Notes under the pieces: model-generated
Told to the model about the DNA's origin: nothing
What the model saw: the letters and a program-made list of their open reading frames with translations, nothing else
The model's database searches: none
In this document: in pieces, positions 28,600 through 38,760 of the stretch
Numbering within the stretch: position 1 is the stretch's first letter
Layout of the letters: every line of letters starts with the position of its first letter
Translations under genes and position numbers: made by a program
DNA from: Thermoanaerobaculia bacterium
GTDB taxonomy: Bacteria > Acidobacteriota > Thermoanaerobaculia > Gp7-AA8
Length of the DNA: 64,000 nt
Direction of reading: 5' to 3'
NCBI GenBank assembly: GCA_017883235.1
Contig: JADGNY010000001.1
Location: 62,001-126,000, forward strand

Positions 28600-28815
28600 G
28601 CGTGAAGCCTGTTCAGGTGGACTCAGAGACTGCCCGCAGATACCGGGAGCCTCTTGGCAGATACCCGGAGCCTCTTGGTAGAGGCTGTAAGCCTCTTCGG
28701 GTGGGCGTCGAGCCTCTCCATAGAGGCTGTGAGCCTGTTCGGGTGGGCGTAGAGCCTCCCCATAGAGGCTGTGAGTCTCTTCGGGTGGGCGTAGAGCTTC
28801 TCCTGGATCAAACAC
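28600..28815. repeat. minisatellite A1: AGGCT-GTG-AGCCT hairpin units
   Basis: About four to five imperfect units of roughly 42 bp run from 28685 to 28800, with degenerate units back to 28600. Each carries the hairpin AGAGGCT-GTG-AGCCTCTT followed by cgggtgggcgt. One more unit sits on the far side of the neighbouring array (29565-29612). Open frames through it are not maintained. Confidence 0.8.
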
Positions 28816-29505
28816 GTTGATCTGCGAATCAAACCCGTTGATCTGCGGGATCACACACGTTGATCTGCGGGATCAAACTCTTGATCTGCGGGATCAAACA
28901 CGTTGATCTGCGGGATCAAACTCTTGATCTGCGGGATCAAACACGTCGATCTGCGCGATCAAACACGTCGATCTGCGCGATCAAACATGTCGATCTGCGG
29001 GATCGAACATGTCGATCTGAGGGATCAAACTTTCGATCTGCGGGATCAAACATGTCGATCTGCAGGATCAAACTTTCGATCTGAGGGATCGAACATGTCG
29101 ATCTGAGGGATCAAACTTTCGATCTGAGGGATCGAACATGTCGATCTGAGGGATCAAACTTTCGATCTGCAGGATCAAACACGTTGATCTGCAGGATCAA
29201 ACTTTCGATCTGCGGGATCGAACATGTCGATCTGAGGGATCAAATTTTCGATCTGCAGGATCAAACACGTTGATCTGCAGGATCAAACTTTCGATCTGAG
29301 GGATCAAACATGTCGATCTGCAGGATCAAACTTTCGATCTGAGGGATCACACATGTCGATCTGAGGGATCGAACTTTCGATCTGCGGGATCAAACATGTC
29401 GATCTGCAGGATCAAATTTTCGATCTGCGGGATCAAACATGTCGATCTGCAGGATCAAATTTTCGATCTGAGGGATCAAACATGTCGATCTGCGAGATCA
29501 GACAC
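28816..29505. repeat. minisatellite A2: TTGATC-TGCGG-GATCAA hairpin units
   Basis: About 32 units occur over 690 bp. A conserved core GATCTGCGGGATCAAAC alternates with two linkers (acatgtc or acacgtt, and actttc or actctt), so 22-bp and 21-bp units combine into a 43-bp higher-order repeat. The core varies at the loop (tgcgg, tgagg, tgcag). Left-hand units are palindromic with 6-bp arms, and each unit has two GATC sites. Frame changes between units argue against a protein. Confidence 0.9.
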
Positions 29506-31252: not shown

Positions 31253-32341
31253 CTACGCGACCGGATAAATCGGATCGTTGAGAGGTGCCTTGGCCAGAGC
31301 ATCCAGCCGGGCCGCATGCGGCGTCAACGGCGTGGGACGGTAGTCGATGTCGCGCCAGCGCTCGATGATCGACCGGTGGAAGTACTCGGTTTTGAACTTC
31401 GTGGCACCGACCGTTCGATTCGCTCCGCTGAAGGTATAGACGATCGACTTCGAGTTGTGCACCGCCTGTTTGTAATCAGGGCTTGTCGGGAGTGCGCTGA
31501 TTGCCTTTTGGTCGTACTCGAGCCCGGCGGTCTCCGCCGACGCCATCATCCATTCAAAGGCGATGTCGGAGAGTCCGTGCTCCGGATAGCCGCCACCGAC
31601 GTCGCTGTGGGCGCCGGCGAACCAGACCTGCTGCACCATCTGTCCCGGATCGGGCTGGCTTTCCCAGAGCGTGGGCAGGAATGGATGGCGATGCTCGTCG
31701 ATGGCGAGGGCGTGGAACGCGAATTTAGCGGCACGGCTCAGGCTCGTGTCGAGAAACTGGAACTCCTTCTGATTCCAGGCACCAAAGGCCCGAAGCGGGA
31801 TGCCGAGGGCTCCGACTGTGTCCCAGACACCGACGCACTGGATGGGCGTGTCCGGCTCGATCGCGTAGGCGTTCTTGAACTTGACCGCGGCCGGATTGTC
31901 GGGCTTGACACCGCTCCGGTAGAGGGTCTTCGCGTCGGGATATTGCCTGACGGCGTCGCGGCGGAGAATGCCACAGCGGCGGATCATGCCGGCGATGCTG
32001 CGCGCCGTGTACGCGCCTCGGCTGAATCCGAAGAGATAGATGGAGTCGCCAGGCTCGTAGTTGGCGATGAGAAAACGGTAGGCGTCGTTGATGTTTCCTT
32101 CCAGCCCGTCACCGAACGCACCGCCGCCGATGCGGTCGGCGAGGTTCCCGGTTCCCACACCCTGGTCGTAGTAGACGATCTGCAGTGAACCGTCTTTTTT
32201 CCCCTTAGCGACCCGGCAGGCGATCTTGAGGACATTGGTGACACACAGGTCTTCCGTCACCTTACCGTTCACTTCGACCTTCTTCTTCTCCTGATCGGCG
32301 CTGTTCCAGGTTCCATCGCAGCAGAGGATGATGCTGGCCAT
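31253..32341 (-). CDS. DUF2235 alpha/beta-hydrolase
   Basis: DUF2235 proteins include the Tle1-type phospholipase effectors of type VI secretion and many cytosolic homologues. The 362-residue protein has the N-terminal nucleophile-fold start MASIILCCDGTWNSADQ, the nucleophile elbow FGFSRGAYTARSIAGM near residue 106, and a catalytic Asp/His region HSDVGGGYPEHGLSD near 230. There is no signal peptide and no VgrG, PAAR or T6SS gene nearby, so secretion is unsupported. A paralogue is at 37357. Confidence 0.85.
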   Translation of the reverse strand: MASIILCCDGTWNSADQEKKKVEVNGKVTEDLCVTNVLKIACRVAKGKKDGSLQIVYYDQGVGTGNLADRIGGGAFGDGLEGNINDAYRFLIANYEPGDSIYLFGFSRGAYTARSIAGMIRRCGILRRDAVRQYPDAKTLYRSGVKPDNPAAVKFKNAYAIEPDTPIQCVGVWDTVGALGIPLRAFGAWNQKEFQFLDTSLSRAAKFAFHALAIDEHRHPFLPTLWESQPDPGQMVQQVWFAGAHSDVGGGYPEHGLSDIAFEWMMASAETAGLEYDQKAISALPTSPDYKQAVHNSKSIVYTFSGANRTVGATKFKTEYFHRSIIERWRDIDYRPTPLTPHAARLDALAKAPLNDPIYPVA

Positions 32342-32394
32342 GATTGATCTCCTGTTTTGTGGATGTTAATCCCAAGGCGGCGTCGCGGCAGTGC

Positions 32395-32400
32395 TACAAT
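32395..32400 (+). promoter_or_regulatory. -10 element TACAAT for the thrS leader
   Basis: TACAAT ends 10 nt before the leader-peptide ATG, so the transcript would begin essentially at that codon. The -35 region is not recognisable. Confidence 0.55.
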
Positions 32401-32410
32401 CCGCCGCTCC

Positions 32411-32476
32411 ATGCGACCGTCATCGACACCTTGCACCACGCGAACGACGGAGACGCCTCCTCCGCCCTGTCGATGA
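32411..32476 (+). CDS. Thr-rich leader peptide of thrS
   Basis: Twenty-one codons encode a peptide that begins MRPSSTPCTTRTTETPPPPC and ends in Arg before TGA. Six of the residues are Thr (codons 6, 9, 10, 12, 13, 15). The last three sense codons overlap the antiterminator arm 32464-32472. The peptide is expected to act only through ribosome position: stalling at Thr codons when Thr-tRNA is scarce, or reaching the stop when it is plentiful. The start is probably leaderless. Confidence 0.75.
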   Translation: MRPSSTPCTTRTTETPPPPCR

Positions 32477-32530
32477 TCCAAGCTTGAACGAACACGCGAC
32501 AGGGCCGAGCAATCGGCCCTGTTTGATTTT
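32464..32530 (+). promoter_or_regulatory. transcription attenuator (antiterminator/terminator) of thrS
   Basis: Arm 1 (32464-32472) is perfectly complementary over 9 nt to 32497-32505. The same 32499-32508 segment instead pairs over 10 nt with 32513-32522, with loop gcaa, followed by ttgatttt, which is an intrinsic terminator. The two pairings exclude each other. A ribosome at the leader stop would cover arm 1 and favour the terminator; one stalled at the Thr codons leaves arm 1 free. Confidence 0.78.
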
Positions 32531-32541
32531 GGAGACAAAAC

Positions 32542-34494
32542 ATGCACGTTGAATTACCAGACGGATCAAAACGCGAAGTTCCCGACGGCGCCACCGTGGC
32601 CGACGTCGCCGCATCGATCGGCAAGGGGCTGGCCAGGGCTGCCATCGCCGGCAAGGTGAACGGTAAGGTCGTCGACGTCTACTCCCCGGTCCCCGACAAC
32701 GCCAAAATCGAGATCGTCACGCCGAAGAGCGAGGCCGGGCTCGATACCATCCGCCACTCCACCGCCCATCTCATGGCCATGGCCGTACAGGATCTCTTCC
32801 CCGGGACGCAGGTCACCATCGGCCCGGTCATCGAGAACGGGTTCTTCTACGACTTCGGCACCGACCGGCCGTTCTCCGATGAAGACCTCCGCCGCATCGA
32901 GGAGAAGATGGCGGAGATCGTCAAGCGCGATCTCCCGGTCCGGCGCGAGGTGCTCAGCCGCGACGAGGCCATCGCCACGTTCGAGAAGCTCGGCGAGAAG
33001 TACAAGGTCGAGATCATCAAAGGCATCCCCGGCGATGAACCGCTCTCGGTCTACCGGCAGGGGGAGTGGTTCGATCTCTGCCGCGGGCCGCACGTCCCCT
33101 CCACCGGCCGGCTCGGCGCGTTCAAGCTGACCTCCGTCGCCGGCGCGTACTGGCGCGGCGACGAGCACAACGCCATGCTGCAGCGGATCTACGGAACCGC
33201 CTGGGCGGACAAGGACGAGCTCAACGCCTACGTCAAGCGCGTGGAAGAGGCGAAGGCGCGCGACCACCGCAAGCTCGGCAAGGAGCTCGATCTCTTCATG
33301 TTCTCGCAGTTCGCGCCGTCGATGCCCTTCTTCCTGCCGAAGGGAGCGACGATCTACAACGCGCTGATCGACTTCGTCCGCGACTTCTACGCCCGCGACG
33401 GCTACAGCGAGGTGATCGCGCCGATCATCTTCGATACCGAGCTGTTCAAAATCTCCGGGCACTACGACAACTACAAGGACAACATGTTCTTCTCGGAGAT
33501 CGAGGAACGGGAGTACGGCGTCAAGCCGATGAACTGCCCCGGTCATATCCAGATCTTCGCCATGGAGCGGCGCTCCTACCGCGATCTGCCGATCCGCTAC
33601 GCCGAGTTCACCCGGCTGCACCGCTACGAGCGCTCGGGCGTCACCCACGGGCTGGTGCGGGTCCGGTCGTTCGCGCAGGACGACGCTCATCTCTTCGTCA
33701 CTCCCGATCAGATCGAGCCCGAGATCGAACGCGAGCTGCGCCTGATCAAGGAGATCTACGACATCTTCGATTTCAAGGAGGTGCGCATCGCCCTCTCCAC
33801 CCGCCCCGAGAAGCGCCTCGGCTCGGACGCGTTGTGGGACAACGCCGAAAGCGCCCTGGAGAGCGCGCTGAAGAAAAACGGCGTCGACTACCACATCAAC
33901 CCCGGCGAAGGGGCGTTCTACGGCCCGAAGCTTGAGTTCCAGGTCACCGACGCCATCGGCCGTCCCTGGCAACTGGGAACCATCCAGCTCGACTACGCGC
34001 TGCCGGAGCGCTTCCAACTGCACTACATCGGCGCCGACAACGGCGTGCACCAGCCGGTGATGATCCACCGCGCAATACTCGGCTCCCTGGAGCGGTTCAT
34101 CGGCATCATCATCGAACACTTTGCCGGAGCGTTCCCGTTATGGCTGGCGCCGGTGCAGGCCTCGGTGCTGCCGCTGTCGGAGAAGTTCCTCGACTACGGG
34201 CGCGAGACGGCGGCCACGCTTCGCAAGGCCGGCTTGCGGGTCGAGACCGACGAGTCGAACGAGAAGCTCGGCGCGAAGATCCGCGACGCGCAGTTGAAGA
34301 AGATTCCCTACATGCTGGTGGTCGGCGAGAAGGAAGTCGCGGCAGGAACGGTGTCCGTCCGGAAACGGACCGGCGGCGATCAGGAGCGTTTGGGGTCTCC
34401 TCTCAACCTCGATCGGCTGCTTCGATCGATGTCGGTCGACGATTTCGTCGCCGAAGCGAAGCGGGGCATCGCGGCCCGCTCGTTGACTTTGTGA
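32542..34494 (+). CDS. thrS: threonyl-tRNA synthetase
   Basis: The enzyme charges tRNA-Thr. The 650-residue protein has the full class II layout: TGS domain (1-62), editing domain with RHSTAHLMAMAV (about 71-82), catalytic core with zinc ligand Cys in NCPGHIQIF and motif 2 LHRYERSG, motif 3 region near IHRAILGSLERF, and the anticodon-binding domain to the end. GGAG at 32531 precedes ATG. It is preceded by the leader-peptide attenuator and followed by infC. Confidence 0.98.
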   Translation: MHVELPDGSKREVPDGATVADVAASIGKGLARAAIAGKVNGKVVDVYSPVPDNAKIEIVTPKSEAGLDTIRHSTAHLMAMAVQDLFPGTQVTIGPVIENGFFYDFGTDRPFSDEDLRRIEEKMAEIVKRDLPVRREVLSRDEAIATFEKLGEKYKVEIIKGIPGDEPLSVYRQGEWFDLCRGPHVPSTGRLGAFKLTSVAGAYWRGDEHNAMLQRIYGTAWADKDELNAYVKRVEEAKARDHRKLGKELDLFMFSQFAPSMPFFLPKGATIYNALIDFVRDFYARDGYSEVIAPIIFDTELFKISGHYDNYKDNMFFSEIEEREYGVKPMNCPGHIQIFAMERRSYRDLPIRYAEFTRLHRYERSGVTHGLVRVRSFAQDDAHLFVTPDQIEPEIERELRLIKEIYDIFDFKEVRIALSTRPEKRLGSDALWDNAESALESALKKNGVDYHINPGEGAFYGPKLEFQVTDAIGRPWQLGTIQLDYALPERFQLHYIGADNGVHQPVMIHRAILGSLERFIGIIIEHFAGAFPLWLAPVQASVLPLSEKFLDYGRETAATLRKAGLRVETDESNEKLGAKIRDAQLKKIPYMLVVGEKEVAAGTVSVRKRTGGDQERLGSPLNLDRLLRSMSVDDFVAEAKRGIAARSLTL

Positions 34495-37356: not shown

Positions 37357-38760
37357 GTGAGGTGGCTCGTGAACACTTTGGTTCGACTTGGGGTACTCAT
37401 CATGGCGGTCGAAAGCATGCGCGCGGGTGCGGGGCAGGCTGCGCAAACTGAGACTACACCGTCGCGCGCGCCGCGGCGGATCGTGCTCTGTCTTGACGGG
37501 ACATGGAACGGCGCGTTCGATGAGACGAAGCGACGCGACGGCCAAACGGTACTGAAGCCGACAAACCCGCTCAAGCTTTGCCGGGCCGTGAAGCCGTTCG
37601 ATGATAAGGGCGTGGGGCAGATCGCTTACTACGCGATCGGTGTTGGTTCGCTCTCCGTCTACCCAGGAACCTCGAACTGGCTGCTGCACCATTTCGACCG
37701 CATCCTCGGCGGCGCATTCGGCGCTGGATTCGAGGGAAACGTCGAAGATGCGTTGCATTTTCTAACGTTGAACTACGAGCCGGGCGATGAAGTATACATC
37801 TTCGGCTTTAGCCGCGGTGCGGGCACCGCGCGCGCCGTTACGAAGTTTCTGGAGTGGAACCGCGGCGTGCCACAAAAGGGCGATGCCTACTACCTGCCGC
37901 TACTCTTTCGCGAATACCTTCGCGTTCAGGGTGGTACAGATGACCGTCAGTACGAGCGCTTCAAAGACAAACTCGACGACGAGAACAAGAAACGACCCCA
38001 AAAGAAACCGTTAGAGCGGTTCACGCCCGTGACGGTCCGCTACCTTGGCGTGTGGGACACGGTCATGGCGCTCGGATCACGGCTGAATTCGAGGGGTGCG
38101 AACACCTCGTCGCAGAATCGAGCCTTCTTTGCCGGCGATGCTCCGGCTTCGTGTGTCAAGCGCGCACGGCAGGCGCTAGCCATCGACGAGCGCCGCTTCG
38201 ATTTCCGTCCCGAGGTTTGGATCAAAGCCCTCGATGGCCAAGAGGTTGAGCAACGCTGGTTCGCAGGCGTGCATTCGAACGTCGGTGGGGGCTACCTTCA
38301 CGACGGACTGGCCAACGTCGCGTTCCACTGGGTCATGAACGGTGCCGAGAAAGAGGGGCTGCAGGTCGATCATGCCTTCGCCGATGTTTACGAAGGAGGT
38401 TCGCTCGACTCTCTGTACCAATCGTCAACGCCGTTCTACCAAGTCTTCGATCTTATCCGCAACACGGTCGGACGCGGTGAGCGTGAGCTTCATGGATTCC
38501 ACGCCGACCTCTCCCCGTCGGTCATCGAGAGAATGCGCGCCAAACCTTCCGAAGTGTTGGACAGCGAGCGTCAGCCTTCTTCGAAGCCTTACCGGCCTGA
38601 GAACGTCCTGCGCTTCCTCGCTGCTCAGCCGAACCTCGACTCATATCTTCAGGAAATCGGGCTGAAGAACGTTGCGATCAAAGATCTACCGGAGGATGTG
38701 CAGGAGCGGATCAAGACGCTTCGGGCAACTTCCGCTGCTATAGGCGGGGCTCGGCCATGA
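37357..38760 (+). CDS. DUF2235 alpha/beta-hydrolase, operon gene 1
   Basis: The 467-residue protein has a GTG start; the ATG at 37402 is an alternative. The fold starts RRIVLCLDGTWNGAFDETKR, with the nucleophile elbow IFGFSRGAGTARAVTKFLEW near residues 148-167 and the catalytic Asp/His region GVHSNVGGGYLHDGLANVAF near 306-325. A short hydrophobic stretch at the N-terminus could be a weak signal or an artefact of the upstream start. It is longer than the paralogue at 31253. Its stop overlaps the next start (ATGA). The likely chemistry is ester or phospholipid hydrolysis, unproven. Confidence 0.82.
   Translation: MRWLVNTLVRLGVLIMAVESMRAGAGQAAQTETTPSRAPRRIVLCLDGTWNGAFDETKRRDGQTVLKPTNPLKLCRAVKPFDDKGVGQIAYYAIGVGSLSVYPGTSNWLLHHFDRILGGAFGAGFEGNVEDALHFLTLNYEPGDEVYIFGFSRGAGTARAVTKFLEWNRGVPQKGDAYYLPLLFREYLRVQGGTDDRQYERFKDKLDDENKKRPQKKPLERFTPVTVRYLGVWDTVMALGSRLNSRGANTSSQNRAFFAGDAPASCVKRARQALAIDERRFDFRPEVWIKALDGQEVEQRWFAGVHSNVGGGYLHDGLANVAFHWVMNGAEKEGLQVDHAFADVYEGGSLDSLYQSSTPFYQVFDLIRNTVGRGERELHGFHADLSPSVIERMRAKPSEVLDSERQPSSKPYRPENVLRFLAAQPNLDSYLQEIGLKNVAIKDLPEDVQERIKTLRATSAAIGGARP

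Follow-up and report, generated by a model that had tools for sequence, protein, structure and literature searches.

A predicted threonine-codon attenuator in front of thrS in an order of Acidobacteriota

Described thrS control and the locus in the window

The threonyl-tRNA synthetase gene thrS is controlled by T-boxes in Firmicutes, and in E. coli by ThrS binding to its own leader. Classical attenuators are also known to precede synthetase genes, namely pheST in gamma-proteobacteria as well as trpS and leuS in Streptomyces (PMC1262725). In Streptomyces lividans TK24, a Thr-containing leader ORF (thrL) has been predicted before thrS and is leaderless by RNA-seq (PMC8079986). The leader RNA of S. 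meliloti trpL (peTrpL, rnTrpL) likewise begins at the AUG of its leader ORF (PMC7298713). Attenuators have been predicted in Acidobacteriota as well, where in 2010 they were almost wholly without assigned function (PMC2965389).

Here, we describe positions 32392-32541 of the window (the whole stretch of 64,000 nucleotides that was analysed, from a member of the class Thermoanaerobaculia in the Acidobacteriota), which lie directly before thrS. From their sequence and that of their relatives, we propose with a probability of roughly 0.87 that they regulate thrS by ribosome-mediated transcription attenuation of the trp/his/thr type, with charged tRNA(Thr) as the signal sensed. This control possibly extends to the genes behind thrS.

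The identity of thrS is given by four Pfam domains (TGS, tRNA_SAD, tRNA-synt_2b, and HGTP_anticodon). It is followed on the same strand by infC, rpmI, rplT, and pheS, where the identities of infC (IF3) and pheS were confirmed and those of rpmI and rplT were assigned from the ORF sequence. The upstream neighbour (31253-32341, minus strand) is divergent from thrS, which thus has no upstream operon partner in the window. As the thrS AUG also lies just 18 nt 3' of the terminator stem, no other obvious promoter for thrS fits. The features of the leader are the following:

32392-32400, plus strand: extended -10 promoter element TGCTACAAT (from the sequence; in relatives mostly TGCTATACT)
32411-32476, plus strand: leader ORF MRPSSTPCTTRTTETPPPPCR with its stop, 21 codons, six of them Thr; probably leaderless (from the sequence and relatives)
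32419-32428, plus strand: segment 1, possible protector strand that would pair with 32468-32477 in the absence of a ribosome (minimum-energy fold)
32464-32472, plus strand: segment 2, 5' arm of the antiterminator (GCCCTGTCG), within the last leader codons beside the UGA stop
32497-32505, plus strand: segment 3 (CGACAGGGC), common to the antiterminator (with 32464-32472) and the 5' strand of the terminator
32498-32523, plus strand: intrinsic terminator stem-loop of 11 pairs with a loop of 4 and a U-rich tail at 32523-32530
32531-32534, plus strand: GGAG, likely Shine-Dalgarno sequence of thrS (from the sequence)
32542-34494, plus strand: thrS, threonyl-tRNA synthetase, 650 aa, the putatively regulated gene (Pfam)

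The leader ATG at 32411 follows TACAAT (32395-32400) after a gap of 10 nt, and its Thr codons begin at 32426, 32435, 32438, 32444, 32447, and 32453, before a TGA stop at 32474-32476. An equally Thr-rich short ORF arose in five of 2000 dinucleotide shuffles of 32342-32541, and the leader is the sole ATG-started ORF so rich in Thr across both strands of the window. Segment 2 is the exact reverse complement of segment 3 over 9 nt, and a complement of that length to the 5' strand of the terminator appeared in 30 of 20000 leader shuffles. The terminator consists of ten Watson-Crick pairs (32499-32508 with 32513-32522) and one G-U pair (32498-32523), followed by TTGATTTT, and folds with -21.5 kcal/mol (z -5.5). 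Compared with shuffles, the antiterminator piece of the window reaches a z of -3.5 and the whole leader -4.1. Chance is a poor explanation in view of the ORF and arm frequencies among shuffles and the z value of the terminator.

The first-pass annotation had placed the TACAAT box, the 10-nt gap, the 21-codon ORF with six Thr codons, and both pairings at positions that were all reproduced exactly on recomputation. Its claim that 32497-32505 takes part in two mutually exclusive pairings was borne out by the perfect 9-nt arm and the ten-pair terminator helix. Two features go beyond it, namely the extension of the -10 box and a possible protector hairpin of ten pairs, one of them G-U, between 32419-32428 and 32468-32477. 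In a codon-shuffle test, this latter pairing scored z -3.5 in the window and a Stouffer z of -2.8 over 17 leaders; the result is not uniform, with the pairing being strong in the window and weak or absent in several relatives.

The surroundings of the locus hold two further features. Two genes with a T6SS Tle1-like phospholipase catalytic domain (PF09994), at 31253-32341 (minus strand) and 37357-38760 (plus strand), bracket thrS-infC-rpmI-rplT-pheS. Further upstream, about 16 tandem copies of a 43-bp unit, consisting of two near-repeats of GATCTGCGGGATCAAAC, occupy 28819-29500 and adjoin a 42-bp tandem array at 28668-28803.

Conservation and distribution of the leader

The order, a group of soil Acidobacteriota, is represented by 19 genomes in the set, 18 of which have DNA upstream of thrS. 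G017 was left out since its contig begins 4 nt before thrS, and a weak match on another contig is not its leader. All 18 members carry the layout of leader ORF, terminator, and thrS, with one copy of the element per genome directly before thrS. The leader ORF, arm, and terminator are conserved over 12-13 genera of the order. All 17 members of the first family have a clear arm at the final leader codons, and the second-family genome G018 is without a clean antiterminator arm. A Thr-rich leader ORF occurs in 17 of the 18 genomes with the consensus M.RTTT..TRTT...PPCR; examples from the first family are MTRTTTTAQTRTGRTPAPCR, MKRTTTGLTRTTTGSPPCR, MFRTTTTIGQTRTTSTSSSPCR, and MKHTTTTQTRTTGTTLMPCQ, and the peptide of the second family reads MTTTSTTTDEVRRPGS. 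The C-terminal PPCR is explained by the arm, as GCCCTGTCG(A/T)TGA spells those residues. When the 18 leaders are pooled, Thr accounts for 125 of 340 codons (37%) in frame versus 7/322 and 10/322 (2-3%) in the other two frames, and the length gaps among leaders are mostly multiples of three, so that the frame is kept. In G008 (L012), the ORF is cut to MRPTCSSPPCR (11 codons, one Thr) with the arms and terminator intact; either the sensor has been lost in nature or the assembly is faulty here.

Among the 17 aligned relatives, 94.1% of the cells of the antiterminator arm are paired, C-A mismatches occurring in G002 and G011. Two antiterminator pairs show changes on both sides (four cells), and none of 500 shuffles reached the covariation score or the cell count. 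Such both-side changes at the arm and the terminator strand occur in G009, G004, G005, and G014. In G009, the same position differs in each of the three strands, with C-G for U-A in the antiterminator and G-C for A-U in the terminator, as is characteristic of two helices that share a strand. As judged from the alignment, compensatory change in the antiterminator and the terminator is thus limited but real; the covariation rests on few columns because the core arms are nearly invariant, and these invariant columns are neutral as evidence. The sequence of the stem above the arms varies freely, and over the set this stem is stabler than with shuffled inner sequence (Stouffer z -5.5), whereas the leader of the window shows no such advantage (z +0.9).

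The -10 box is of the extended kind in 15 of the 18 leaders and absent in G005, G014, and G018. In 11 of the 15 leaders with a box, the ATG lies 7-14 nt after it, which is where the transcript should begin, and the leader mRNA is therefore probably leaderless. In G011, whose 5' end is longer, GAGGA precedes the ATG by a few bases, and a GAGGCGGG stretch occurs in G006, both of which fit a need for translation of the leader. The two genomes of genus g4 (G014 and G005, loci L014/L016) lack a -10 box of their own and carry the leader directly behind two tRNA-Val genes, from whose transcript it may be released. It had been suggested in the first-pass annotation that the leader is leaderless and that it works by trp/his-type attenuation, for which an alignment of the DNA upstream of related thrS genes was named as a check. 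The position of the ATG relative to the -10 box agrees with the former, and the alignment, with its conserved Thr-rich ORF, arm, and terminator, in-frame gaps, and compensatory changes in both pairings, supports the attenuation reading.

The choice of codons within the leader is biased. ACG makes up 92 of the 125 leader Thr codons versus 29 of 79 in six genes of the window that begin with thrS and continue downstream (P = 2e-7). Selective charging theory predicts such a bias (PMC1183508), and either selective charging or pairing inside the leader could cause it. In addition, the Arg codon in the Thr-Arg-Thr-Thr core (window positions 32438-32449) is nearly always CGA in most relatives. CGA is a minor Arg codon (9/155 in the same six genes) and perhaps slows ribosomes or serves pairing.

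Elsewhere in the class, 30 regions upstream of thrS were examined; none contains a Thr-rich short ORF, and several carry two tRNA-Val genes in its place. A covariance model of the whole leader gave 1e-11 to 1e-25 at the 18 loci of the order. These loci trained the model and score so by construction, which does not hold for the absence of other copies: nothing convincing was found elsewhere in the 149-genome class set or in a 297-genome phylum-wide sample, in searches of a size that uses stricter filters, by which weak members could be lost. The next matches, considered as copies before other genes, are GAC-repeat stretches in G305 and G306. A weak extra match in G011 was rejected because a coding region, which has an ordinary terminator, runs into it at its end.

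The proposed switch and its alternatives

In the proposed mechanism, RNA polymerase would start at the leader AUG or a few bases before it. When Thr-tRNA is plentiful, the translating ribosome would reach the UGA at 32474 and cover 32464-32472, whereby 32497-32505 would be free to pair with 32513-32522 and transcription would stop before thrS. With Thr-tRNA in short supply, the ribosome would stall on the Thr codons at 32426-32447, and the open segment 32464-32472 would pair with 32497-32505 before the 3' strand of the terminator is made, so that thrS would be transcribed.

The switch was modelled on transcripts cut before the 3' strand of the terminator. The shared arm then pairs upstream completely, or nearly so, as long as the A site holds a Thr codon other than the final one or two; with the stop codon in the A site, it is mostly unpaired. 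In the window, the contrast is a clear one of 1.0 for the former versus 0.22 for the latter, and it is weaker in some relatives. When the full transcript was taken at equilibrium, the terminator prevailed over the antiterminator wherever the ribosome stood, with few exceptions, in five of nine leaders, including the one in the window. The switch must therefore be kinetic, as attenuators of this class usually are, with an antiterminator that forms first and persists in the manner of the textbook examples. A partition function computed at equilibrium across the ribosome positions is no fair model of a co-transcriptional switch and was replaced by the cut transcripts.

The terminator might also be a fixed leaky end or dampener, for example a remnant of a tRNA-Val unit, with the Thr-rich ORF being translated for another reason and threonine exerting no control. 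Such an origin is suggested by L022, L023, and L024 elsewhere in the class, where a T-tailed hairpin lies between a pair of tRNA-Val genes and thrS, and by the leaders of G005 and G014, which still follow tRNA-Val genes. A plain terminator, however, needs no upstream complement, whereas the arm is kept complementary throughout the family, including the both-side changes in four genomes, and the leaders keep the number of their Thr codons even though the positions shift between relatives. We consider this explanation quite unlikely. It is less probable still that translation or Rho, and not intrinsic termination, is the main target of the leader (through ribosome occupancy or reinitiation at thrS). 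Reinitiation after a short leader can increase translation (PMC4833913), and the leader stop of the window is 65 nt from the thrS start. This distance, however, varies among the relatives between about 60 nt and well above 100 nt, reaching several hundred in G015, which is a poor fit with reinitiation, and nearly all of the 18 leaders keep a strong terminator with a U tail.

The least probable alternative is that the leader senses by another device known for thrS, either a T-box reading tRNA(Thr), as established in Firmicutes, or ThrS binding to its own leader, as established in E. coli. Neither predicts a Thr-rich ORF, and the 20-45 nt of unconserved RNA between the ORF and the terminator are too little for a tRNA-binding domain or a tRNA-mimic operator. 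An Rfam scan of the window and four sister loci gave, tRNAs apart, no family at the gathering score, including the T-box and the Thr operon leader. Nor does the window show the tRNA(Thr)-like hairpins with which an E. coli-type operator covers the ribosome-binding site of thrS: its conserved structures are the terminator and antiterminator, and only 18 nt separate the terminator stem from the AUG. The observations taken together favour ribosome-mediated attenuation as the function of the leader.

Origin of the leader and comparison with known systems

A leader ORF beginning with MTPRT or MTLRT was found at 22 of 74 other thrS loci, mostly of beta- and gamma-proteobacteria, and is mostly followed by a terminator. 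In Burkholderiales, an MTPRTTT.. leader precedes thrS at L040, L041, L044, L045, L052, L056, L059, L063, L069, L078, and L099, with the conserved context AAAGGCA..GGTTATG and in most cases a GCGCGG..CCGCGC terminator before thrS. By its sequence, it is a second candidate thrS attenuator, and no paper on the peptide string MTPRTTT was found in the literature searched. It shares the Thr-codon ORF and the mostly U-tailed terminator with the Acidobacteriota leader and differs in its peptide, hairpin sequences, and longer spacing; there is no sign of common descent between the two. We regard it as an even bet that Thr-codon thrS leaders arose independently at least twice (in the Acidobacteriota order, in Burkholderiales, and perhaps in Streptomyces), and that the Acidobacteriota leader emerged in the spacer between tRNA-Val and thrS, where later, in most genera, a new leaderless promoter replaced the tRNA genes. 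The g4 genomes, in which the leader is still behind tRNA-Val genes, might represent an intermediate stage.

The proposed mechanism is of a known kind, and it is the thrS member and the occurrence in Acidobacteriota that appear to be undescribed in the sources searched, with an earlier mention in a comparative survey being possible. The first-pass annotation had called a ribosome-mediated attenuator at this locus a distinct solution, which is too strong given the known synthetase attenuators, the predicted S. lividans thrS leader (PMC8079986), and the Burkholderiales leader. The element is complete, is conserved throughout the order in strict association with thrS, and has an obvious candidate for its signal. 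It would therefore be a firm trp-type example outside the well-studied phyla, and a further way of controlling thrS in addition to T-boxes and the E. coli operator. Viewed alongside the Burkholderiales leader, this suggests that a trp-type switch is easily re-invented for synthetase genes.

Like the thr, his, and trp attenuators of E. coli, the leader described here combines a short ORF rich in codons for the amino acid presumably sensed with mutually exclusive antiterminator and terminator pairings, and its stop codon lies beside the antiterminator arm; the possible protector hairpin would correspond to the 1:2 pairing of trp. Unlike these systems, it would govern a synthetase gene, is probably leaderless, is reduced to a minimal three-segment core in most relatives, and has no match to the Rfam leader families. 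The attenuators of pheST, trpS, and leuS likewise stand before synthetase genes but concern other amino acids and other phyla. S. lividans thrL has two Thr in 18 codons and no clear terminator, whereas nearly all of the Acidobacteriota leaders combine 5-9 Thr with a strong terminator. The trpL leader of S. meliloti would share the leaderless leader ORF, and it differs in being based on Trp, in preceding trpE(G), and in having trans-acting roles that have been shown.
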